Below are positions 8,882 to 35,966 of a DNA stretch of 39,048 nucleotides, one piece after another. The translations under genes were made by a program, and so were the position numbers. Source of the DNA: a virus; IMG/VR virus record IMGVR_UViG_3300030389_001381, positions 10,952 to 49,999 of that record; one strand, written 5' to 3'. A model generated the notes under the pieces. It saw only the letters and a list, made by a program, of their open reading frames with translations. It did no database searches and was not told where the DNA came from. Position 1 is the stretch's first letter. Each line of letters opens with the position of its first letter.

Positions 8882-11800
8882 CTATCCTGGCCAGTTAGAC
8901 GTTTTAAACCATTCATCTGCATGGAATGGAGGCGCTCCACTTGCTGCAGAAACATTTTGAGGGTTTACTGGTGGTTGAGGAGGTACTCCGTTTGTATTTT
9001 CTACCCACATAACACTAGTAGTAGCTCCAACGCTACAAGAAGCAAGAGTAATCCATTCATGTTTAGCGTTTATTAAACTACAACCACTATAATCAAAAGC
9101 TACACCACCAATAGTACCAGCATCACCAGGTGTAACACCTGCGTTTAGTTGTTGATTTGTTGCATTAAATGCATCTAATCCAGTAATTATATAGTATTCA
9201 GCGCCACTAGTATCGTAAGGTGTAGATACAGGACCACTAAAAGCTCGGTTACCTGTACCATCAGCTGGTGCTTTAAAAGTTGTATTAGGATTAGATGGAT
9301 TCCATGGACCTACTCCGTCTTGAACATTATAACCACCAAATCTAGAATCCATCTGGAAAGCAGAACCATTAGTACTAGATATTTTAACGTAAATCCAAAC
9401 CGGATAATTATTCCAATTAGCAATTTCACCAACCCATATAGGTAAAATAGGTGTAGAACTTGAAGTTGCACATCCTGGTAACATACCTACTGGTCCGTTA
9501 GCTTGTTGATTAGAGGCAACATAATCAGTTTGAGTAGAGTCTGTAGACTGAGCATCATATGTATTATAAACTACTCCAGTATAAGTTTGAACTTGTGGTG
9601 TAAATTGAACTATTTGATTAATTGATTCACCTGTTCCATTGTCATCTGTAAGCGTCATAACTATTTCATGTAAAAATCCTGAAAAGAAATCACCTGAAAG
9701 TGTATCAAATGGACCACTTACATTCATTCGTCTTTCTACCCAAACTCCATAAAAGTTTTCTGGTGTTACATCACCACATGTTGCTTGATTTTCTTGACCT
9801 TGACCTCTTATGTAATAATAAGTATCTATATCAGTTACACCTGCTGAATTACCAGTATTAGTACCTGATATTGTATTATACCATATACCTTGAGAGTTCT
9901 GCCATCTTACACTTGTTATTGACCAAACTAAATCTCTAGTTCTATCACATTTGTCACAACCACCATTATATCCTTTAAGTAATCCTATACCATTAAAAGC
10001 ACTACCACTTGGTTTAATAATAGTTGATTGACCTGGACTTGGGTTAGGATTAACCGCTAAATCAGATATAGGTGGATCATTTGATAATGATCTTACAAAG
10101 CTTTGGTTTGATATAGTTCCGTCTGCTTGAGTAAATTGTATTGTTATCTGGTATTTTTCTAAATAACCAAAATTAGTTAATGCTGTATGTGGTATAACGT
10201 TTTGTAATTGCCAAGCACCACCACCCGCAGAGTTAATTGAAAATTCTGCTGCTCTGTTAACACTTGGATCTACTTGATCATTACTATCAAAAGAATAAAC
10301 TGTTGATAGTGCAGCTGTTGCTGTAACATCTATACCTTGGGGTGTTAATGCAAAAAATGGTGTAGTTATATTTGAATTAGCACAATCACCTTCATTATGC
10401 AACCAAACAAAACTACTTAATCCTGTAATCGATGTACCAGAACTTACTATAGCTGTATTAACATCTGATATTAAACCTGAAGTAGAAGTTTCATAAAATA
10501 ATTCTAAATTAGAAATAACAGGTGAAGTTTCGTAAACAGTTAAAGCCATACTATCTGGATAATCTTCTCCAGCCGGTGGTGTAACATAAACATTTTCTTG
10601 AACACCTATTGGTTTTCCTGTACTAACTTTAGCAATAAAAGGTTTAGATTCAAGATCAAAAATTGAAAAACCATTTATAACACCAGGTGAATCTTGTGGA
10701 GCAGCTGCAGTAGGAGGATTATAAACATAGTCTGGAAAAATATCTCTTGTAGACCCAATTAATTCTACTGAATCAGGAGTTGTAAGAGGATTATATTGTT
10801 CGTTAAAACCAGCACCTGAAGCAGTGTTATTTGTAACTCTACCAAACATGGTAACATCACTATTAAACTGAACGTCTTGATTACTTATTTCATTTAATTG
10901 TCTAGGTATTTTATTTATATTGTCATGTATAAGAGTTATAAAAGCTGTTGAATCTAATTCTCTAGTATCACCTTCTATAGGATAACCTTGTGTAATACCT
11001 GGTAAGTAAGCATTATAATATTCTTGTTGTTGTTGTTTTACTACTACTCTATAAGAATAAAAACCAGTAGGATTTATAGTAAATGTATAATTATTTACTG
11101 CTAAATCTGTAAGAGGTTCAGTTCTAGTAGTTGGATTAGTAGAAGGATCAGTATCACCTTGAAACATATAATCATCTGCTATTTCTTCAAGTGTGTAAAT
11201 ATAAAAAGAATCAGTACCAACCAAGCCATTAAAAATTTGTACAAAATCTTTTATTTCAGTGTAATCACAGTATTTTCCTCTTAGCTGTCTACCTACACCA
11301 AATAATGCTTCTGTATTTACAATGCTAGTAGCTGGATCAACATCTAATCCAAGATTTTCTATTTCATATCTATAATATTGTTCAGCATTAAATAAGTATT
11401 CTCCTTTTAATTTTAGTCCAGCAGGTAATGAAGCACCTCCATCAAAACATATTCTAAACGTAGCTAATACGTTTTGAACAGTAAAAGCTAAAGCAACTTC
11501 AGTCCAACCAGTTCCATCATTTTGCCATAATGTAAATGTGTTTGGCGCGCCAACTAATCCAACTGGTAAATTAGGAAAATCATAACAAACTTGTAATGCT
11601 ACACTATCAAGCTCTTCTGTACTCCAATTTAAAAATGCAGGAAACGGATTACTATATGGTGGTTGTACTGAGTAAATATCTGGCTGAGCATATAAAGCTT
11701 CAGCGTTTCCGTTTACATTTATAACACTATCAAATGTTACAGTTAAATTATCTCCTTTCCAAGCTTTTACTTCGTTAGCATTTTCAGCCGCTCTATATTC

Positions 11801-16868: not shown

Positions 16869-18338
16869 CTACACACCTTTGAATAATACAAAGTTGTTAG
16901 CTGCTTGAGTTACTAGACATCTTTCTGATAAGAAGTTAACTTCCATAGCATCAAGAGTAGAAGTAAATGCACCGCCAACAGAACCTGTTAACCATGATTT
17001 CATTCTTCTATCATCAGCTTGAGAAGCTCTATATCTTACATGTAAGAAAGGTCTTCTGATGTTTGTACCAAGAATTTGATCATAAACAGTTGAAGTTCCA
17101 GCAGGTATTAAAACACCTTCGATTGAACTTACACCGCTCATAGCACCTCTTGTAGAAGCATCATTTAAGTATTTCCAGTCAGTTTTATAGAAGTCATAAG
17201 AACCTCTTCTGAAACCAGAGAAACCTAAATTTAACGCCATTTCCTCAGAATTTTCAAATAAACCAAATGCAGTACCACCAGCATAACCACCTGAGATTTG
17301 CGCTAGCATATCATCAAAGTCAAGAGCTGTTTGTCTTTGTAAGAAAAGCATGTTTTCTTCAATTGCACCCTGTGTATCTAAATTCTTAAGAATAGCATCG
17401 AAAGCATCTATACCAGCTGAAGCTGTGAAACCAACGTTTACGTTACCTCTATCTTCGATAGCAGCAAACATACCTTGAGTACCTTTAGTAATGTTTTTTA
17501 AGCCAGCAGGTCCGTTTACACTTAATTCACCTTCTACCATAGCCATTTCTAAATAATCCTCAAATCTAAGTCTTGTTTCAGACTCAGCTTTTAGATACCA
17601 TAAATATCCGCTTGTTCCATCTTCAGTAGCAACTTCTACCCAACCGATCTGAGCTGTGTCAGAACCAGAAACAACATATTTGCTTCTAATAATGATTGGT
17701 GAATTGTGATACTGTTGGAAAGCAGGATCTACACTAATGTACTCATCACCAGTTACTGCGCCTAATGCGTCAGGAGCGTTCGTTACTGATTGACCTTTTT
17801 GTACGTCAGATCCATAAACGAAAATCTTAGCTGTAGCAGCGATTGATTGTAAATCTGCAGCTGTGTAAGGTAATACGTTTAATACACCTGTGTTAGTGTT
17901 ACTATCAACTACATAAGCTTTAATCTCAGCACCTAAGTCATCCATAATAACAATAGTACTCTTAGGAGAAACTACGTTTTTAATTTCAGCATTAGCGTTA
18001 CCAAGACCTGAACCGATTGTTGGAATAGTTACGGTATTTACACCAGCACCATTACCAATAGCACAATCGTCATAAGCGATATGTAATCTGTTTTGCTCAG
18101 ACCAAATGACCTGATCGGACGTCATAGGCATTTCTGCACCTACCATTCTCAAGAAACCTGATAACGTTCTGTTTCCATAACGCTCTACTTCTTGTTCATA
18201 GATTTCCGGTAGATATTGCTGTGCAAAGTCAGCAAAATCGGCTGCAGAATTCTTATCTGTCCACTGTAAATAGTTACTGTTAAGTAACTCTTGTTTTTGC
18301 GATGGGATAATAGACCCAAATTGTGGAGTTAAACTCAT
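16869..18338 (-). CDS. Major capsid protein (HK97-fold), 489 aa
   Basis: At 489 residues it has the size and position (after portal and scaffold) of a crAss-like major capsid protein. The N-terminus (SLTPQFGSIIPSQKQELLNS, then NYLQWTDKN, FAQQYLPEIYEQEVERYGNR) and internal segments (QVIWSEQNRLHIAYDD, MAMVEGELSVNGP) fit that family as I remember it. No protease or delta-domain processing site is obvious. Its codons are less biased to AT-rich choices than the accessory genes, as expected for a highly expressed gene. It ends with TAG and is followed by a strong hairpin. It is the shell protein of the head. Confidence 0.82.
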   Translation of the reverse strand: MSLTPQFGSIIPSQKQELLNSNYLQWTDKNSAADFADFAQQYLPEIYEQEVERYGNRTLSGFLRMVGAEMPMTSDQVIWSEQNRLHIAYDDCAIGNGAGVNTVTIPTIGSGLGNANAEIKNVVSPKSTIVIMDDLGAEIKAYVVDSNTNTGVLNVLPYTAADLQSIAATAKIFVYGSDVQKGQSVTNAPDALGAVTGDEYISVDPAFQQYHNSPIIIRSKYVVSGSDTAQIGWVEVATEDGTSGYLWYLKAESETRLRFEDYLEMAMVEGELSVNGPAGLKNITKGTQGMFAAIEDRGNVNVGFTASAGIDAFDAILKNLDTQGAIEENMLFLQRQTALDFDDMLAQISGGYAGGTAFGLFENSEEMALNLGFSGFRRGSYDFYKTDWKYLNDASTRGAMSGVSSIEGVLIPAGTSTVYDQILGTNIRRPFLHVRYRASQADDRRMKSWLTGSVGGAFTSTLDAMEVNFLSERCLVTQAANNFVLFKGV

Positions 18339-19573: not shown

Positions 19574-21988
19574 TTATCTAGGTTCAAATTGCTCTAGATC
19601 AAAACCTCCTAAAGAATCAAAACCAGCAGATTCAAAATCTGTAGGTAACGCATTATTCTGTCTTTGTTGTATTAGTTGAGACTCTTGCGTACCCTGCATT
19701 TTAATTCTTTTATCTTTTCTATTTTCTATTTCTTGTTCTTTTCTTCCTTCTGCGTCAGCTTTAATTCTAGCTAATTGCATATTATAGCTAAACTCTTCAG
19801 CCATTAGTTCTTTTTTAATGGTTGCTTCTGTTTGCATGCGTTGAATTTCCATTTGAGATTTAGCTTGTTCTATTTGAACTTCTGTTTCAGCTAAAGCTTG
19901 TTGTTTTTGCATTTCTGCTAAAGTAGCTTGCTCAGCTGCTTGAGCATTAGCAGCGGCTTGTGCTTGTATATTAGCTCGTTGTGCTGCTTGATCTTTTTCT
20001 AATTTCTTTTTACGTTTTTGTTTTAAAAGTTGATTAGCTAGTTTTAGATTTTTAACTTGTCTAATATCAATAGCATCGTCTAAATCAATACCACCAGATG
20101 CTAGTGCAACTTGTATGTTTTGTTCTAATTGAGCCTTTTGTTCTTCATCTGGTTCTAATTCTAAAAATATACCAAAATCTGCTAAATTTTTATCTTGTAA
20201 TTCTTCTAATGTTCCAGTATTATAAGCAGATATAGAATCTATTAAAGCAGCTCTAGTTAATGGATATTGTAAAACATCAGCTATTCTTAAAGCAACATTT
20301 TCACAAACTCTAAGAGTTAAATATAAACTAGCTTTCATTAAATGTCTCAATGCGGTGTTAGAATTTGCTGCAGCTATTTTTTGTAATCCAACTAAAGCTT
20401 TTACATCTGGAGTACTAGCATCAGTAGCTTCATTTAATCCCGTCACATCTCTTATCATTTGTAAATAGTATTGATATGTTTGAATTAAACTTTGTATCTT
20501 AGCTCCTCCATTACTTGTTTGAAGTTCTTGAATAGGAACTTTACCTCTATTTATATCACCTTCTTGAGTCATTGATCTACCTACAATACTACCAGTTTGG
20601 AAATACATGTTTAATGCTTCTGCTGGATTATAATTAGTACCATTACCTAAATCAACTTCTGCTAATCCATCAACATCAACAAAAACTCCATCAGGTACCA
20701 TTCTTGATAATACTTGTTGTAATTTTAAATGTGTTAATTGTATCATATCAGCAAAACCAGTTATACGACTTACTGTGGACTCAATCATACCTTTATATAA
20801 TTTAGGAGCACAAATACAATAATTCATATTAACTTTACTAACATTAGAATTAGGTCTAGTCATGTTTTCAGCTAACTTCCACTCTAACATCATTTCATGT
20901 CCTAGTATTTTAGCTCCACTATATAATACCTCAATAGCTCTACCTACTCTTTCAAAGTTGTCGTTTGCAGGAGGATTAAATGAGTCTGGTTTTTCTAAAG
21001 CTTTTTCTAAACCTTGTTCTGTTTGTTTTATTTTAAATACTTGATTACTGTATGTTTTGTATTCAAAATATAAAACTTGCACTTGATTATAAGAATCTTG
21101 TTGAGCATAAAAATTTCTAGTATAATTAGCGTCTCCTGGATATTTTTGTATTACTTCTAATTCTTGATCTGTTAACCAAGGAAACTGTTTTTTAACTTCA
21201 ACTAAACTCATTGATTTAACTTCTCCAACATAATATATATCTTCAAAATTAGGATCATCAGTGTAAGAATAAACTAAATTAGCAGGGTCTACATAATCTA
21301 TATCTATACCATTTGCTAAATTAAATGTAGTTTTTGTAGCTCCTATTCCAATAACAGTTAAGTCTTCAATAACTCTTCTTTTAACAAGTTCATATTTATT
21401 AGCTTGTAAAACATTATCTATAGCTTCTTCTTCTGCTATTTCAATAGATTGTTTATAACTTAACTGCATGTGAAGATCTAAATCTTCTTGTGTTTCTGGA
21501 ATATTATTTGGATCTGCAGAATTAAAAAAATCTAAACCTGTAGCTTCTTTAGTAGCTTGTATCATTTCTTTAGCATACATATCACGCATTATAGCGTCTG
21601 CATACTTTGTTCTTTGCTTTAAAGATTCAGGATCTTGAGCAAAAGCTTTTATATCAAAAACTCTTTGAGACATACCATTTACTATTATATCTACAAATTT
21701 AGGTATAATAGGCACTGGTTTCCAGTCTAAATTTAAATAAGATAAATCACCGTTAACTGCTAATTCATCTTTATATTTTTGCACTGGCTGCTCACCTCTA
21801 GCGTACAATCTAAGTCTATGAAAATTCAACCAACTATTTTGGTATCTATTTCCCATGCCTCCTCTATCTCCAGAGAACCATTCACCTTCAATAGCTCTAC
21901 CGACAGCATAACCATATTCCATTGTTTGCTTTTCCGCGTCTGGTACCACCTGACTAGGAAACGAGCCTGCGTAATTGTATGTTATCAT
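19574..21988 (-). CDS. Portal protein, 804 aa
   Basis: The N-terminal part (SWLNFHRLRLYARGEQPVQK, LNLDWKPVPIIPKFVDIIVN, GMSQRVFDI) is typical of crAss-like portal proteins. The middle contains wing and stem-like segments (ELQTSNGGAKIQSLIQTYQY, MIRDVTGLNEATDAS). The C-terminal ~150 residues form a long Ala/Gln/Glu/Lys coiled coil followed by an acidic tail ending in FEPR; this could be the barrel or the scaffold-contact region. The gene begins immediately after the terminase stop, with zero spacing, so coupled translation is likely. It forms the dodecameric DNA channel at one capsid vertex. Confidence 0.88.
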   Translation of the reverse strand: MITYNYAGSFPSQVVPDAEKQTMEYGYAVGRAIEGEWFSGDRGGMGNRYQNSWLNFHRLRLYARGEQPVQKYKDELAVNGDLSYLNLDWKPVPIIPKFVDIIVNGMSQRVFDIKAFAQDPESLKQRTKYADAIMRDMYAKEMIQATKEATGLDFFNSADPNNIPETQEDLDLHMQLSYKQSIEIAEEEAIDNVLQANKYELVKRRVIEDLTVIGIGATKTTFNLANGIDIDYVDPANLVYSYTDDPNFEDIYYVGEVKSMSLVEVKKQFPWLTDQELEVIQKYPGDANYTRNFYAQQDSYNQVQVLYFEYKTYSNQVFKIKQTEQGLEKALEKPDSFNPPANDNFERVGRAIEVLYSGAKILGHEMMLEWKLAENMTRPNSNVSKVNMNYCICAPKLYKGMIESTVSRITGFADMIQLTHLKLQQVLSRMVPDGVFVDVDGLAEVDLGNGTNYNPAEALNMYFQTGSIVGRSMTQEGDINRGKVPIQELQTSNGGAKIQSLIQTYQYYLQMIRDVTGLNEATDASTPDVKALVGLQKIAAANSNTALRHLMKASLYLTLRVCENVALRIADVLQYPLTRAALIDSISAYNTGTLEELQDKNLADFGIFLELEPDEEQKAQLEQNIQVALASGGIDLDDAIDIRQVKNLKLANQLLKQKRKKKLEKDQAAQRANIQAQAAANAQAAEQATLAEMQKQQALAETEVQIEQAKSQMEIQRMQTEATIKKELMAEEFSYNMQLARIKADAEGRKEQEIENRKDKRIKMQGTQESQLIQQRQNNALPTDFESAGFDSLGGFDLEQFEPR

Positions 21989-24199
21989 TTATTTTATTAT
22001 TTTTGAAATATATCCTTTGTTATTGAATTTTTTAAACCCTAAAGGTTTAGGAGTAACTTCTTTTTGAAATATAGGTTTGTACATATTTTTATTACAACCC
22101 ATAATTGCTAAACCTGAACTAATAGAAGCATCATGCTTTGTTCTATTATTAATATCAAATTTAGCCCAGTCTTCTAATGTTTGTTGAAAATATATATCCC
22201 CATATTTTCCACCTAAGTTACCAACGTAAGTTTCTATATATGATTCAATAGCAGCTGCATGAGCTTGTTTTATATCTTCACTAGAATTAGGTATTCCACC
22301 TATTTCTCTTTCTGTAACAGATAATTTCATAAAAAGTTTATCTGGTCTATTCATTGAAAAACCTCTATATCCTCTTCTTTTAAAATGATATAGTAATCTA
22401 GGTTTATTATTTTCTGCTAATATTGGCATACCATAAAAAACACAAGCCATTAAAACATCTTCAAAAAATATTTCAGCAGTTTGTGGTCTTGATATGTATT
22501 CTAAAAAAAACATATTTGGTGGTACGTTTTCCATAGAAAATTTTGTAAGTCCGTGTAAAGATCCATTTGAACCTCTTGAATCTACTGTTCCTGATATGTC
22601 GTATGGATCACATCCAAAACATCCTGTATGCTCATTTCCAGGATACCTTACACCATTTTTCATTACAACATTATTTTGTAAGTTTATAGGTGGTACCCAT
22701 GTTATATTAAATCTACCACTTTCGTTTGGTTTAAATATAACTCTTGTATCTTTTATTCCATGTTCCCATTGAAAAGAACCTTTAGTAACCATTTTATAAC
22801 TACTACAATCTTCATTAAAATCTATTTGTTCATATATTTTAACCAAGTTAAAAAGTGAAGCTTTTGATTCATCTCTAAAAGCATGTTGAGTAGTTCTTGG
22901 AAATTGTCTATAAAATTCGTTTAATCCGTTTTGATCTTGTTTTAATCCTTCAACTTCGTTTTCCCAGTATTCAATAACTCCAAGTTCAATTTTATCGCCT
23001 CTTGGTCCAACAATCGGTCGCTTAGGTGTGTCGAACACAGGTAATCCATAAGAATCAATGTATCCTTCGTAATTCCATTCCATAGGTATGAACAAACTAT
23101 AGAGTCCCGAACGAGTCTGTCCGTTGGCGTTTCGTTGTGTAACATCTGAATCATCATATAATTTTTTAAAGTTATCGCCTCCTTTGTCTAATGAGTTGCT
23201 TGTTGAACCCATCATACATTTACCAATTATTCTACTACCTAATCTTAATGTTGTTTTTGTAACTCTCCAATTATTTAAAATATTATTAGGTCTTTCCCAT
23301 TTACCACTTTCATCATGTACTAATAGTTTTAATTTTTCACCATCATAACTATTATCACCTGTATTTTTCCAATCAATAGTTGTATCAAGACCTTGTAAGT
23401 CTTCAACTGTTTCGTTGTTTTCAAGTTTACGTCTAGTGAATTTACTAGCAGGAACTCTATAAGCTAACTCTGTTTTAGGTCGATCCATACCATCTTGAAT
23501 CGGTTTAAAAAAGAAAGGATAATTAACTGATATAGGTACAACTTTATCCGTAAACATTTTTTTAGCATCAGGACCAGTTTTAGATAGTATACCATAACGT
23601 GAGTCACTTGATATTGTTGCTAAATTTACAACTTCTCCGGATGCCATAAAAGAGAATCCAGAACGACGGTTTTTGAGGTAGCACATTCCGTAGCATCTTT
23701 TATCTGCTTTGCAAGCTTCCCAGAATAAGAAGAATAATCTATTGGCTTCTCTATAGTCTGGTGCCCCAACGTCAATCTTACTCCACTGCAAGTACATATA
23801 ATGAGTGCCAGTGATGTAAGTAGGAATATCTTTATTATAAAACCAAAAACCTTCTTCTCTACGTGTAAATTCTGTATCAATGTAATCATACCATTTTTCT
23901 TTAAAATCTTCTGGATATTCTTTCCAATCAAAAACAGTTTTTATTTTACTTAATGCTTTAGGATATTCAGCTTTTGACCATTTGTTATTATCAAATTTAT
24001 ATACGTTTTCTTTTAAAGGTAAAGCTATTTTAAGTCCTTGTATCTCATATATGTCACCTATTTTACCACTTTTACTTATAACAACAATATCATGTTCTTT
24101 GTTATAACCATACTCCCACTTTTTATTTTTATTATTTCTTTTTAATATATGTGGTTTTATGTGATTTTTTAAAATCTTATATAAGTTCTGATCGTACAT
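21989..24199 (-). CDS. terL: Terminase large subunit, 736 aa
   Basis: This ATPase-nuclease packages DNA into the head. A Walker A-like loop reads CYLKNRRSGFSF (about 173-184), a degenerate arginine-rich P-loop. Walker B is KLKLLVHDE (289-297, D296/E297), and the coupling motif is likely GKCMMGSTSN (326-335). The nuclease domain starts at FGCDPYD (D531), with a second acidic region at AENN (E596) and a third at TKHDAS (D690). An N-terminal extension of about 130 residues precedes the ATPase. It overlaps the upstream 91-aa gene by one base (TAATG) and directly abuts the portal gene, the usual packaging order. Confidence 0.92.
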   Translation of the reverse strand: MYDQNLYKILKNHIKPHILKRNNKNKKWEYGYNKEHDIVVISKSGKIGDIYEIQGLKIALPLKENVYKFDNNKWSKAEYPKALSKIKTVFDWKEYPEDFKEKWYDYIDTEFTRREEGFWFYNKDIPTYITGTHYMYLQWSKIDVGAPDYREANRLFFLFWEACKADKRCYGMCYLKNRRSGFSFMASGEVVNLATISSDSRYGILSKTGPDAKKMFTDKVVPISVNYPFFFKPIQDGMDRPKTELAYRVPASKFTRRKLENNETVEDLQGLDTTIDWKNTGDNSYDGEKLKLLVHDESGKWERPNNILNNWRVTKTTLRLGSRIIGKCMMGSTSNSLDKGGDNFKKLYDDSDVTQRNANGQTRSGLYSLFIPMEWNYEGYIDSYGLPVFDTPKRPIVGPRGDKIELGVIEYWENEVEGLKQDQNGLNEFYRQFPRTTQHAFRDESKASLFNLVKIYEQIDFNEDCSSYKMVTKGSFQWEHGIKDTRVIFKPNESGRFNITWVPPINLQNNVVMKNGVRYPGNEHTGCFGCDPYDISGTVDSRGSNGSLHGLTKFSMENVPPNMFFLEYISRPQTAEIFFEDVLMACVFYGMPILAENNKPRLLYHFKRRGYRGFSMNRPDKLFMKLSVTEREIGGIPNSSEDIKQAHAAAIESYIETYVGNLGGKYGDIYFQQTLEDWAKFDINNRTKHDASISSGLAIMGCNKNMYKPIFQKEVTPKPLGFKKFNNKGYISKIIK

Positions 24200-24474
24200 T
24201 ACTTAGATCTTCCTTCAGCAAAACCTTTAAAAGTTTTTTCTTTTTTAACTTCTTTAGGTTTTTCATTTAACATATCTTCTTCTTCTTGTATACGCTTAAG
24301 TATTTCAAACGCATCAAATATAGCTAGTTTTTTTGTAGCTGCTGCATTTTTTAATCTATCAGCACTTATATCATCTTCTGAATCAACAATAGGTTCTTTA
24401 GCAACTTTAATTAATTCATCTACTGCTACTTGCCCAGCTTGGATTATATTCTTCTTGGTTTCCTTTATTTTCAT
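24199..24474 (-). CDS. Small terminase-like protein, 91 aa
   Basis: The 91-residue protein is helical and charged: AGQVAVDELIKVAKEP, then DISADRLKNAAATKKLAIFD and AFEILKRIQEEED, with a basic disordered tail. Position directly upstream of the large terminase with a TAATG overlap suggests the small terminase subunit or a functional substitute. It overlaps the preceding GroES-like gene by 59 bp in another frame. There is no clear helix-turn-helix, so the DNA-recognition role is unproven. Confidence 0.6.
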   Translation of the reverse strand: MKIKETKKNIIQAGQVAVDELIKVAKEPIVDSEDDISADRLKNAAATKKLAIFDAFEILKRIQEEEDMLNEKPKEVKKEKTFKGFAEGRSK

Positions 24475-25024
24475 ATTTAATTACAATATCATTAGATTTC
24501 ATACAGTATAACCTTTCACCGTCTACTATAAATTCCCATTCACCATATGGTGTATAACCAACAATGTCACCAGGATTAATTTCTTTATCTTCTAAAGAAC
24601 TATTACCATATTTTAATACTCCTATAAGTTTTTGTTCTTTATCGTTTGTTAGAGATGAATTATTCTTTAATGGTTTTATAAAACATCTATCGTTAAAAGT
24701 AAACCAAGTATTATTGTTTTTATATAAATATATTTGATCAGGTTGACAAAAGTATAAATTATCTTTAAACCAAGATCTACTTTTTTTTTGCTTACCTTTA
24801 GTGTCATAAAAAACTCTAAAAACATTTTGATGCAAAACAACTATATCTCCTACGCTTATACCTGTATAATAAGCTAATGGACAAGCTTTAACTATAGCTT
24901 GTCTATTAACAAATTTCCAAGTTTCAACTTTATTGTTAAGTATTAACTTTTTATCTTCTACTTTAATCTCATTGTTATATGTTTCACCTAATGGTTCTAC
25001 GATAAAATCATATAAACTTTTCAT
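24416..25024 (-). CDS. Tandem GroES-like (Cpn10-fold) protein, 202 aa
   Basis: Two halves each resemble a co-chaperonin barrel. The first (about 1-105) starts KSLYDFIVEPLGE and has ISVGDIVVLHQNVFRV and CQPDQIYLYK. The second (about 110-185) has NDRCFIKPL, then NPGDIVGYTPYGEWEFIVDG and LYCMKSNDIVIKYE, closely matching the GroES pattern VGDIV...G....DGE.....S.IL...E. A recognisable mobile loop is not obvious in either half. The gene is about 9 kb from the groEL-groES pair, just upstream of the terminase genes, and ends in TGA. It could assist capsid folding with a chaperonin or be a structural protein built from the same fold. Confidence 0.62.
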   Translation of the reverse strand: MKSLYDFIVEPLGETYNNEIKVEDKKLILNNKVETWKFVNRQAIVKACPLAYYTGISVGDIVVLHQNVFRVFYDTKGKQKKSRSWFKDNLYFCQPDQIYLYKNNNTWFTFNDRCFIKPLKNNSSLTNDKEQKLIGVLKYGNSSLEDKEINPGDIVGYTPYGEWEFIVDGERLYCMKSNDIVIKYENKGNQEEYNPSWASSSR

Positions 25025-33323: not shown

Positions 33324-33770
33324 TTATCTGTTTATATCGTTGTTTACGTTGTATATAGAAGTTCTTAAAACCTTATTAGTGTAAGTATCTTTTCTCATTA
33401 TAATGTTTCTTCTTTCACTTGTAGGTATGTCTTCATATCCTAAAATAATTTTATATATTTTATTTATAAGTTGTTTGCATTTAAATGAAACTTTATATAT
33501 ATTGTATTTTTGTGTAGTTCTATTTCTTTTACGCCACACTGTTATCCAATTGTTTTTAAGTAATTTGTTCCATCTTTTATTATCCCAACTATAAGAATAA
33601 GAACCCATTTCAAAATCATGTTTAGTAAACATATCAATACAGTCTAAATATATTAATAGTTCTAAATCAGCATCATTTAAATCGTTGTTTTTGCAAGCCC
33701 ACTTACGGATTATTCGATAATGTTTAAACAGATTAAGATCTTTAAGATCTCCTGCGTCTAGCCTTCTCAT
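33324..33770 (-). CDS. Winged-helix (MarR-like) DNA-binding candidate, 148 aa
   Basis: The 148-residue basic protein has helices HYRIIRKWACKNNDLNDADL and ELLIYLDCIDMFTKHDFEMG, followed by WDNKRWNKLLKNNWITVWRK and a beta-wing-like turn RNRTTQKYNIYKVS. This order (helices, recognition helix, wing with aromatic residues) matches phage winged-helix proteins found next to structural genes. It probably binds DNA and could regulate late transcription. It overlaps groES by 4 bp (ATGA), placing it in the chaperonin transcription unit. Confidence 0.6.
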   Translation of the reverse strand: MRRLDAGDLKDLNLFKHYRIIRKWACKNNDLNDADLELLIYLDCIDMFTKHDFEMGSYSYSWDNKRWNKLLKNNWITVWRKRNRTTQKYNIYKVSFKCKQLINKIYKIILGYEDIPTSERRNIIMRKDTYTNKVLRTSIYNVNNDINR

Positions 33771-34027
33771 AAAACAACGACAACATCTTGTGATTTTATA
33801 ACATGATATGTATTATTTTCAACTTCTATTTTATGACCAGCATGTCTATCAAAATATATAATATCTTTTTCATTTAATCCTTTTATTTCATCTCCTACTG
33901 ATAAAATTTCTGCTTGAGTATATCTAATATCTTGCTGATCTTTTTCACCTAACAACAAACCACCTTTAGTTTTAGTTGTTCCTTGTTGGGCTTTTTTTAT
34001 TATTAAATTTCTACCTATTGCTTTCAT
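33767..34027 (-). CDS. groES: Co-chaperonin GroES (Cpn10), 86 aa
   Basis: I choose the ATG at 34027 (MKAIGRNLIIKK), three bases inside an alternative TTG. The chain shows the GroES framework. A mobile loop at about 15-33 contains GGLLLGEKD, the hydrophobic tripeptide that contacts GroEL (usually I-V/I-L). Then come EILSVGDEI, KDIIYFDRHAGHKIEVENNT and a C-terminal strand VIKSQDVVVVL. At 86 residues it is slightly shorter than bacterial GroES (about 95-97). It lies downstream of and overlaps groEL by 17 bp, the reverse of the usual groES-groEL order. It would cap the phage or host chaperonin ring. Confidence 0.88.
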   Translation of the reverse strand: MKAIGRNLIIKKAQQGTTKTKGGLLLGEKDQQDIRYTQAEILSVGDEIKGLNEKDIIYFDRHAGHKIEVENNTYHVIKSQDVVVVL

Positions 34028-35567
34028 CAACTCTTAAATTATTAATTACACAATCTGTAGATAAGATGGTTGAAGCTACTGAAGCAGCGTTTTTTAAAGC
34101 ACTTTTTGTAACTAACAAAGGATCTATTATACCTTTTTTTACCATATCTACTGTTTCACCGTCTATTACGTTTACGCCGTAACCATCTTCTGCAGGTATC
34201 GTTATTGTTTCAAATCCTGCGTTTTCTAGTATTTTTCTGTAAGGAGATAATATAGATGCTGTTAATATCTTCTCACCTTTGTTTTTTTCTTTTATTTGTA
34301 ATGCCGCATTAAGTAATGCAACACCACCGCCTGGAACTATACCTTCTTTTATTGCAGCTTTAGTAGCACATATTGCATCTTCAGCTCTGTCTAGCTTTTC
34401 TTTGAGTTCAACCTCTGAATTAGCCCCTATTTTTACAACTGCAATTTTAGCAGAAAGTCTAGCTAATCTTTTTTCTAATGCTACTGTTTTATCAGGTATT
34501 TTGCAAATTTTTAATTCTTCTTGAATAGAATCTATTATAGATAATATTTCTGGTTTTAAATGATCTATTTGTATTATTGTTTCATTTAAACTTGTTACAC
34601 TCTTTAAACAAGTACCTAAACAATCAAGATCTATCATATTCATATCATCTCCTATATCTTCATTTATTACTGTAGCATTTGTTAATAAAGCTATATCATC
34701 TAGTATTTCTTTTCTATTAACACCTAATACTGGAGCATCAATTACATTTATTTTTATATTACCCTTTGTTTTATTCATAGCTAAAGCCGATAAAACATCT
34801 GGTTCTAAATCACCTATTATTAATAAAGGTTTTTTATTTTTTATTACATGCTCAAGAATTTTTTGTATTTGTCTTATACTATTTACTTGAGAATCTATTA
34901 TCATTACAGCTGGATTATCTAACTCAGCTATTTTTTTCTCTTTGTTTGTTATAAAATGAGGAGATGTAATTCCTTTATTATATTGTGCTCCATCTATAAC
35001 TTCTACTTCTGTTTCACCATTTGGTGCAACTTCCATCATTACAACACCTGTTTTATCTACTTTTCTAAAAGCATCAGCTATTATTTTTCCTAAAACAATA
35101 TCATTGTTAGTTGATATAGTAGCCACATTATCTAGCATTTTATCTTCTACAGGTATAGATATTTTATCTAAATAACTTACTACTTGTTCAACAGCACTGT
35201 TTATGCCTTCTTTTATTTCTCTCACGTTTTTCTTATCTAAAACGTTATAAGCATTTTTTAATATAGAATGAGCTAAGACTGTAGCAGTAGTTGTACCATC
35301 TCCAGCTTCTTGTACTGTTTTTTTAGCAGCTTGTTTTAATAGTGTAGCACCTATGTTTTGCACAGGATCTCTTAATATTATGTTTTCTGCTACGGTTACA
35401 CCATCTTTAGTTATTATAGGGTTTCCGTTAGAATCTTCTAGTATCACACATTTACCGCTAGCTCCTAAAGTGGAGCTAACAGCATTTGTGAGTTTTTCGA
35501 TACCTTCAAATATTTGATCTCTTGCTTCGTTGCCGAAGTTGAGATTTTTAACTATCATATTTGACAT
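34011..35567 (-). CDS. groEL: Chaperonin GroEL (Cpn60), 518 aa
   Basis: This full-length chaperonin folds proteins in an ATP-driven double ring. ATP-site residues are kept: TKDGVTVA (D55), GDGTTTAT (89-96), LDRAEDA (D397, the position of E. coli D398) and VPGGG (411-415). The apical domain (about 190-375) is divergent; for example PVLGVNRK replaces the host-like PGFGDRRK. The chain ends after DESNR without the usual GGM tail. An ATTTA repeat leader precedes it, and groES follows in overlap. It probably folds phage capsid or tail proteins; the divergence argues against recent capture from a host. Confidence 0.93.
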   Translation of the reverse strand: MSNMIVKNLNFGNEARDQIFEGIEKLTNAVSSTLGASGKCVILEDSNGNPIITKDGVTVAENIILRDPVQNIGATLLKQAAKKTVQEAGDGTTTATVLAHSILKNAYNVLDKKNVREIKEGINSAVEQVVSYLDKISIPVEDKMLDNVATISTNNDIVLGKIIADAFRKVDKTGVVMMEVAPNGETEVEVIDGAQYNKGITSPHFITNKEKKIAELDNPAVMIIDSQVNSIRQIQKILEHVIKNKKPLLIIGDLEPDVLSALAMNKTKGNIKINVIDAPVLGVNRKEILDDIALLTNATVINEDIGDDMNMIDLDCLGTCLKSVTSLNETIIQIDHLKPEILSIIDSIQEELKICKIPDKTVALEKRLARLSAKIAVVKIGANSEVELKEKLDRAEDAICATKAAIKEGIVPGGGVALLNAALQIKEKNKGEKILTASILSPYRKILENAGFETITIPAEDGYGVNVIDGETVDMVKKGIIDPLLVTKSALKNAASVASTILSTDCVINNLRVDESNR

Positions 35568-35591: not shown

Positions 35592-35879
35592 TTATTTAAA
35601 GGTTTTAACGACTTTAGGACCTTTTAAGAACTCTACTTTTTTAGCATAGTGTTCTACTGAACCATCAATAGCTTGTTCTGCGCCTTCAATAGTTTCACGT
35701 CTCGTAACGTCGTGCCAAGTATCTTCATCTGGATCTTGGTATTCAGTTTGATAAAAACCGTTAGGTAATTGGGTTATCCTCCAGTTTTTCTTTTCTGCGA
35801 GGTGTTTCCAAAGGTTAATGGTTTCTTCTGAAATTTGTGGTTGACTATTCCACGTTCTAGTCGAATAATAAAACGTCAT
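35592..35879 (-). CDS. Uncharacterised small protein, 95 aa
   Basis: I take the ATG at 35879 (MTFYYSTRTWNSQPQ), because the upstream in-frame start at 35918 adds 13 residues with no supporting pattern. The sequence mixes aromatics and acids (INLWKHLAEKKNWRITQLPN, then YQDPDEDTWHDVTRRETI) and ends in a basic tail. It resembles a compact alpha-beta protein. No function is recognised. It sits directly upstream of groEL and downstream of a fibre-like gene. Confidence 0.55.
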   Translation of the reverse strand: MTFYYSTRTWNSQPQISEETINLWKHLAEKKNWRITQLPNGFYQTEYQDPDEDTWHDVTRRETIEGAEQAIDGSVEHYAKKVEFLKGPKVVKTFK

Positions 35880-35966
35880 AATTTTTGGTTTTAAGGTTAA
35901 TATTTGGTTGCCATACATCCTGGCCGGGTATATTTTATATATTACTTGTTTTTAGTAATTTTTACA

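Follow-up and report, generated by a model that had tools for sequence, protein, structure and literature searches.

The viral DNA analyzed here encodes a full group I chaperonin together with its own lid, and we consider it likely that the two form a private machine that folds virion proteins. The genes, their conserved order, their residues, the clade to which they belong and the selection acting on them were observed directly; the clients, the folding cycle and the oligomeric state of the machine are what we infer. The window, by which we mean the whole stretch of DNA that was analyzed, comprises 39,048 nucleotides, positions 10,952 to 49,999 of IMG/VR virus record IMGVR_UViG_3300030389_001381. 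The record has 49,999 bases, is probably a fragment and carries no assigned host.

Every large gene from approximately 38.2 kb down to position 1 of the window is carried by the minus strand. PHROG matches identified a large terminase, a portal protein and virion proteins among these genes, in agreement with a first-pass annotation of the sequence that had described the chaperonin genes as phage-encoded. Its placement of the pair in a late operon was borne out as well, since groEL and groES share their strand with the terminase-portal-virion block and lie upstream of it. The features used in the analysis are listed below in window coordinates.

16869..18338, minus strand: virion structural protein, likely the major capsid protein as judged by its position; a possible client
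19574..21988, minus strand: portal protein, given for context
21989..24199, minus strand: large terminase of the packaging module, adjoining the tandem Cpn10
24416..25024, minus strand: tandem Cpn10, a second co-chaperonin candidate; 202 aa in two GroES-fold halves
33324..33770, minus strand: conserved 148-aa gene with a 4-bp overlap with the groES stop; predicted MarR-like winged helix
33767..34027, minus strand: groES, the co-chaperonin; 86 aa, ATG at 34027, with a GGLLL mobile loop and a shortened roof region
34011..34027, minus strand: groEL/groES overlap of 17 bp
34011..35567, minus strand: groEL, the group I chaperonin; 518 aa, ATG start, no GGM tail, altered ring-ring contact sites
35592..35879, minus strand: conserved 95-aa gene just upstream of groEL, of no known family

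Among the terminase relatives, every cultured phage has a host in the Flavobacteriaceae (Flavobacterium, Cellulophaga, Tenacibaculum or Maribacter), and a flavobacterial host is therefore likely for the window virus. The closest terminase record is an uncultured podovirus-like genome (63%). A tRNA scan of the window found none, and a sigma-70 promoter scan around the groEL-groES operon gave 39 hits where 36.8 were expected, which is no excess over chance.

The groEL-groES pair and its neighbors

Both gene products scored above the Pfam gathering cut-offs for their families. The GroEL matched Cpn60_TCP1 (PF00118) over residues 26-509 (4e-60; 204 bits, cut-off 34.3) and the PHROG family 'chaperonin groEL' at 1e-135, and the GroES matched Cpn10 (PF00166) at 3e-12 (46.8 bits, cut-off 21.1). 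The full chaperonin and co-chaperonin that the first-pass annotation had read from the letters, with groEL first, are thus both present. The groES gene could alternatively start at an in-frame TTG, located at 34030. Values of pN/pS between 0.17 and 0.56 for the two genes indicate purifying selection on both.

The canonical bacterial groESL order, groES and then groEL, is reversed in the window. The general rule that bacteria have groES first was found to hold in 77 of the 80 bacterial loci. One planctomycete, Thalassoglobus neptunius, has a Cpn10 gene after GroEL (after 4722), the sole phage-like order among the bacterial loci compared. Pattern scans of IMG/VR returned 63 GroEL and 80 GroES relatives, and groEL came first in 102 of the 103 distinct gene pairs. 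Two overlap lengths accounted for 101 of the 102 groEL-first pairs: 17 bp, as was noted at first sight for the window (34011-34027), in 64 of them and 4 bp in 37.

The groEL-first arrangement is common in this marine phage lineage and was already known for the group. GroEL in marine Bacteroidetes phages has been reported before (Nishimura et al. 2017, PMC5332604, with 36 environmental genomes), and with 102 distinct groEL-first pairs now counted, the earlier remark that few phages carry both proteins proved too strong for the lineage. The literature acknowledges phages with homologues of both GroEL and GroES (PMC7185714), Maribacter phage Panino being one that has both (PMC11590407), and elemovirus isolates show the same gene order with GroEL and GroES already annotated. 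Among phage records as a whole, 287 of 50,697 (approximately 0.6%) have a GroEL match.

Two small conserved genes flank the pair. The 148-aa gene comes next after groES, with a 4-bp overlap, in 92 groEL-first pairs. A Pfam search with its product gave scattered weak hits only; the structure model (pLDDT 87.5) found its best PDB matches among MarR-like proteins, at the indecisive values of Foldseek E 0.019 and VIA Z 7.7. From the model, the product is predicted to be a MarR-like winged-helix protein, and any regulatory role for it is a guess. In the family, the 95-aa gene that precedes groEL starts at ATG 35879, and the listed ORF starts at 35918. It shares 91-93% identity with relatives in which GroEL identity is just 66-69%, and its synonymous divergence is likewise low; either recombination or unusual constraint could account for such unusual conservation.

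Residues of the ring and the lid

Residues of the GroEL family were compared in E. coli numbering across 24 non-redundant members. The ATP-site residues were described as intact in the first reading, and 20 of the 23 listed E. coli positions of the ATP/Mg pocket are identical in the window, the exceptions being P33A, A480V and A481I. No variation occurs, in the window or among the 24 family members, at D52, D87, D398 and D495 or in the DGTTT motif and GGG. Identity varies by domain, spanning 33-61%. The apical domain, which had been singled out as diverged, is indeed the most diverged in comparison with bacteria, at 33-35% against 44-48% for the N-terminal equatorial part. Within the apical groove that binds client and GroES, L234Q and V264M are fixed (24/24), whereas Y203H and V263A are each present in 23 of the 24 members. 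The hinge glycines 374-375 are replaced by A and K.

The missing GGM tail, also pointed out in the first pass, was confirmed across the family: GGM is absent from the last 30 residues in 90 of 90 members and present in 74 of 80 bacterial GroELs. All eight other phage GroELs inspected are likewise without it, so its absence is a general phage trait among the GroELs compared and no special mark of the window family.

The surface through which two rings would meet is altered. Positions A109 and E434 fall within deletions in all 24 family GroELs, S463 and V464 are substituted in most, and R452 is changed to K or E in 20 of the 24. R452 and E461 were aligned as retained in the window GroEL, but in a gappy, poorly alignable stretch; their retention would leave room for a double ring. 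In E. coli GroEL, the changes R452E/E461A/S463A/V464A produce the single ring SR1 (PMC12696368). Since deletions or substitutions affect the main contact positions between rings in most or all of the family, the comparison of sequences suggests that the family GroEL is a single ring or has a rebuilt ring interface. For the same reason, a double heptameric GroEL14-GroES7 assembly appears doubtful.

The lid carries changes of its own. The mobile loop has its hydrophobic tripeptide, in the form TKTKGGLLL in the window and GGL(L/I)(L/I) across the family, and the viral GroES has two extra residues directly after the loop. In the sequence alignment the roof region is shorter by approximately 9 residues than that of E. 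coli and by approximately 4 than that of Flavobacteria. A precedent is gp31 of T4, which is without roof loops and, together with host GroEL, folds the large capsid protein gp23; the missing loops are believed to help this large client (PMC6318259). By analogy with gp31, the shortened roof suggests a cage adapted to large virion proteins.

A tandem Cpn10 beside the terminase

The first-pass annotation had overlooked two genes, the predicted winged-helix gene coupled to the pair and a second co-chaperonin candidate. The second co-chaperonin candidate, at 24416-25024, is located just upstream of a 91-aa ORF that is followed by the terminase. This ORF (24199-24474, minus strand), between the two genes, is a small terminase candidate by position. 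The tandem protein matched the PHROG family 'co-chaperonin GroES' 13932 at 5e-23. Its Pfam score of 13.8 bits is under the Cpn10 cut-off of 21.1; homologues in phages phi19:3 (31.7 bits) and phi38:1 (28.2 bits) score above it. The structure model (mean pLDDT 74) found its best match in Chlamydomonas Cpn20 (7ekq_R; Foldseek E 3.8e-5, and VIA Z 9.9 over 159 residues with an rmsd of 5.3), and single Cpn10 chains align with the C-terminal half. In the window clade the N-terminal half has a long loop with a LIL motif at the mobile-loop position, and the C-terminal half is without most of the mobile loop. In 80 of 80 contigs the gene has its place just ahead of the terminase, and elemovirus, Pervagoviridae and Pachyviridae relatives have it as well. 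A search of the open literature found no description of a tandem Cpn10 from a phage; database annotation as Cpn10/GroES exists.

Cellulophaga phage phi19:3 encodes the tandem Cpn10 and a single-domain GroES and has no GroEL; the tandem protein is therefore independent of phage GroEL. For the use of co-chaperonins with host GroEL, this phage serves as a natural control. The tandem protein may serve host GroEL or have a role in packaging. A strong contender, which we place somewhat below an even chance, is that it is a structural or packaging adaptor in which the GroES fold has been re-used, and no co-chaperonin. Its unvarying place next to the terminase and the reduced loop of its C-terminal half are what an adaptor would predict. 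The Cpn20 match across two domains, the LIL motif retained in the N-terminal half and the gathering scores passed by the phi19:3 and phi38:1 homologues argue against this reading. A more ambitious scheme, put forward tentatively and at a rather low probability, would combine all three proteins into one machine: a GroEL that acts as one ring or by way of a new ring interface, a GroES of the phage's own with a short roof, and a tandem protein of Cpn20 type dedicated to portal or terminase assembly. If this were true, the tandem protein would be, to our knowledge, the first to be demonstrated as a working tandem co-chaperonin anywhere but in plastid-type organelles.

Function, origin and comparison with known systems

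The functional alternative that fares best for the pair itself, although we consider it unlikely, is a general host-support chaperonin that provides more folding capacity for host and phage enzymes while the infection runs, with no special virion link. The pair sits among replication genes in several relatives (phi40:1, immuto), and in elemoviruses it is on the strand opposite the late genes, as would be expected of such a chaperonin. In the window lineage, however, it occupies the late-gene strand near the structural genes, and the fixed divergence of the apical groove suggests specialized clients or a private lid. For phi38:1, mass spectrometry detected the phage GroEL in free virions as well as in infected cells (PMC13288928), which means that such phage groEL genes are expressed; its presence in free virions also speaks against a purely host-supporting role.

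Less probable still is a division of labor in which the phage GroES mainly serves host GroEL and the phage GroEL works without a lid. The chaperonins of phages EL, OBP and AR9 require no co-chaperonin (PMC9598537), and phi19:3 has the tandem Cpn10 and one single GroES but lacks a GroEL; both observations are in keeping with this division. It is harder to reconcile with one overlapping groEL-groES unit in approximately 100 distinct pairs, and with a sequence much nearer to GroEL (33-61% by domain) than to the giant-phage chaperonins (approximately 21-29%).

The tree set the GroEL family apart by a branch of 100% support, with none of the 34 bacterial sequences inside; the elemovirus and Manatee Spring phage GroELs join the family weakly, on long branches. 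Identity to the best bacterial match is approximately 44%, and the closest cellular sequences are those of Flavobacteriia. The phylogeny proposed in the first-pass annotation as a check has thus returned, for GroEL, a viral clade, not a host clade with a bacterial flank. The chaperonin genes are an old viral lineage and no recent host gene. That the genes were captured recently from a bacterial groESL operon, or that a bacterial segment was misbinned, can be rejected as extremely improbable even though the closest cellular sequences come from plausible hosts, given the tree, the low identity, the inverted gene order and the recurrence of the unit in many independent viral contigs.

The preferred reading remains a private machine that folds virion proteins, and its operation can be outlined as follows. 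The groEL-groES unit would be passed down within a lineage of marine phages, and the cultured relatives of that lineage by terminase infect Flavobacteriaceae. Translation of the two proteins is probably coupled, because the reading frames overlap and the order is fixed. The GroEL ring would bind unfolded phage proteins and then take up ATP, and the phage GroES would cap the ring through its GGLLL mobile loop. The client would fold inside the cage, with ATP hydrolysis and then release. Given the loss or alteration of contacts between rings and the shortened roof of the lid, the machine is probably a single ring or uses a new ring interface, with a roomier or more open cage that would suit large virion proteins. 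The tandem Cpn10 probably caps the phage or the host chaperonin, or helps the packaging or portal machinery to assemble.

Phage GroEL-GroES pairs are known and little studied, and the phage chaperonins that have been studied biochemically (EL, OBP and AR9) do not require a lid. The GroEL of the window lineage is still recognizably bacterial, yet appears to have rebuilt ring-ring contacts and a changed lid, and the lineage could show whether viruses repeatedly make GroEL into a form with a single ring or a larger cage for clients of capsid size. The tandem Cpn10 next to the terminase gives a testable hint that packaging or portal assembly may include a chaperone step. We regard the altered ring interface, combined with the Cpn20-like tandem protein beside the terminase, as the most interesting lead.

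Known systems share parts of this arrangement. The elemoviruses (Flavobacterium phages vB_FspP_elemo) come with the same groEL-groES order, no GGM, a deleted E434 loop and a tandem Cpn10 by the terminase; they differ in that their GroEL is only 39% identical, A109 is not deleted, the pair is on the strand opposite the late genes and the overlap is 1 bp. In the Pervagoviridae (Cellulophaga phi38:1/phi40:1), GroEL, a small Cpn10 and a tandem Cpn10 are all present, but Cpn10 precedes GroEL with one gene between them, near the DNA polymerase. Bacterial GroEL and GroES (E. coli, Flavobacteriia) have in common with the window proteins the group I chaperonin type, the ATP pocket and the GroES mobile loop, and differ in gene order, GGM tail, ring-ring contacts, apical groove and roof region. 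T4 gp31 and RB49 CocO are also phage lids, with a roof that is reduced in gp31 and thought to favor the large capsid client; they work with host GroEL, whereas the window phage encodes a GroEL too. The EL, OBP and AR9 chaperonins are phage-encoded and have known single-ring states, but they are distant in sequence (approximately 21-29% identity to the window GroEL for the giant-phage chaperonins) and need no co-chaperonin, whereas the window has a GroES. Chloroplast Cpn20 (PDB 7ekq chain R) resembles the tandem protein of the window in having two GroES-fold domains in one chain; the two are only 12-15% identical, and the C-terminal half of the phage protein is without most of the mobile loop.
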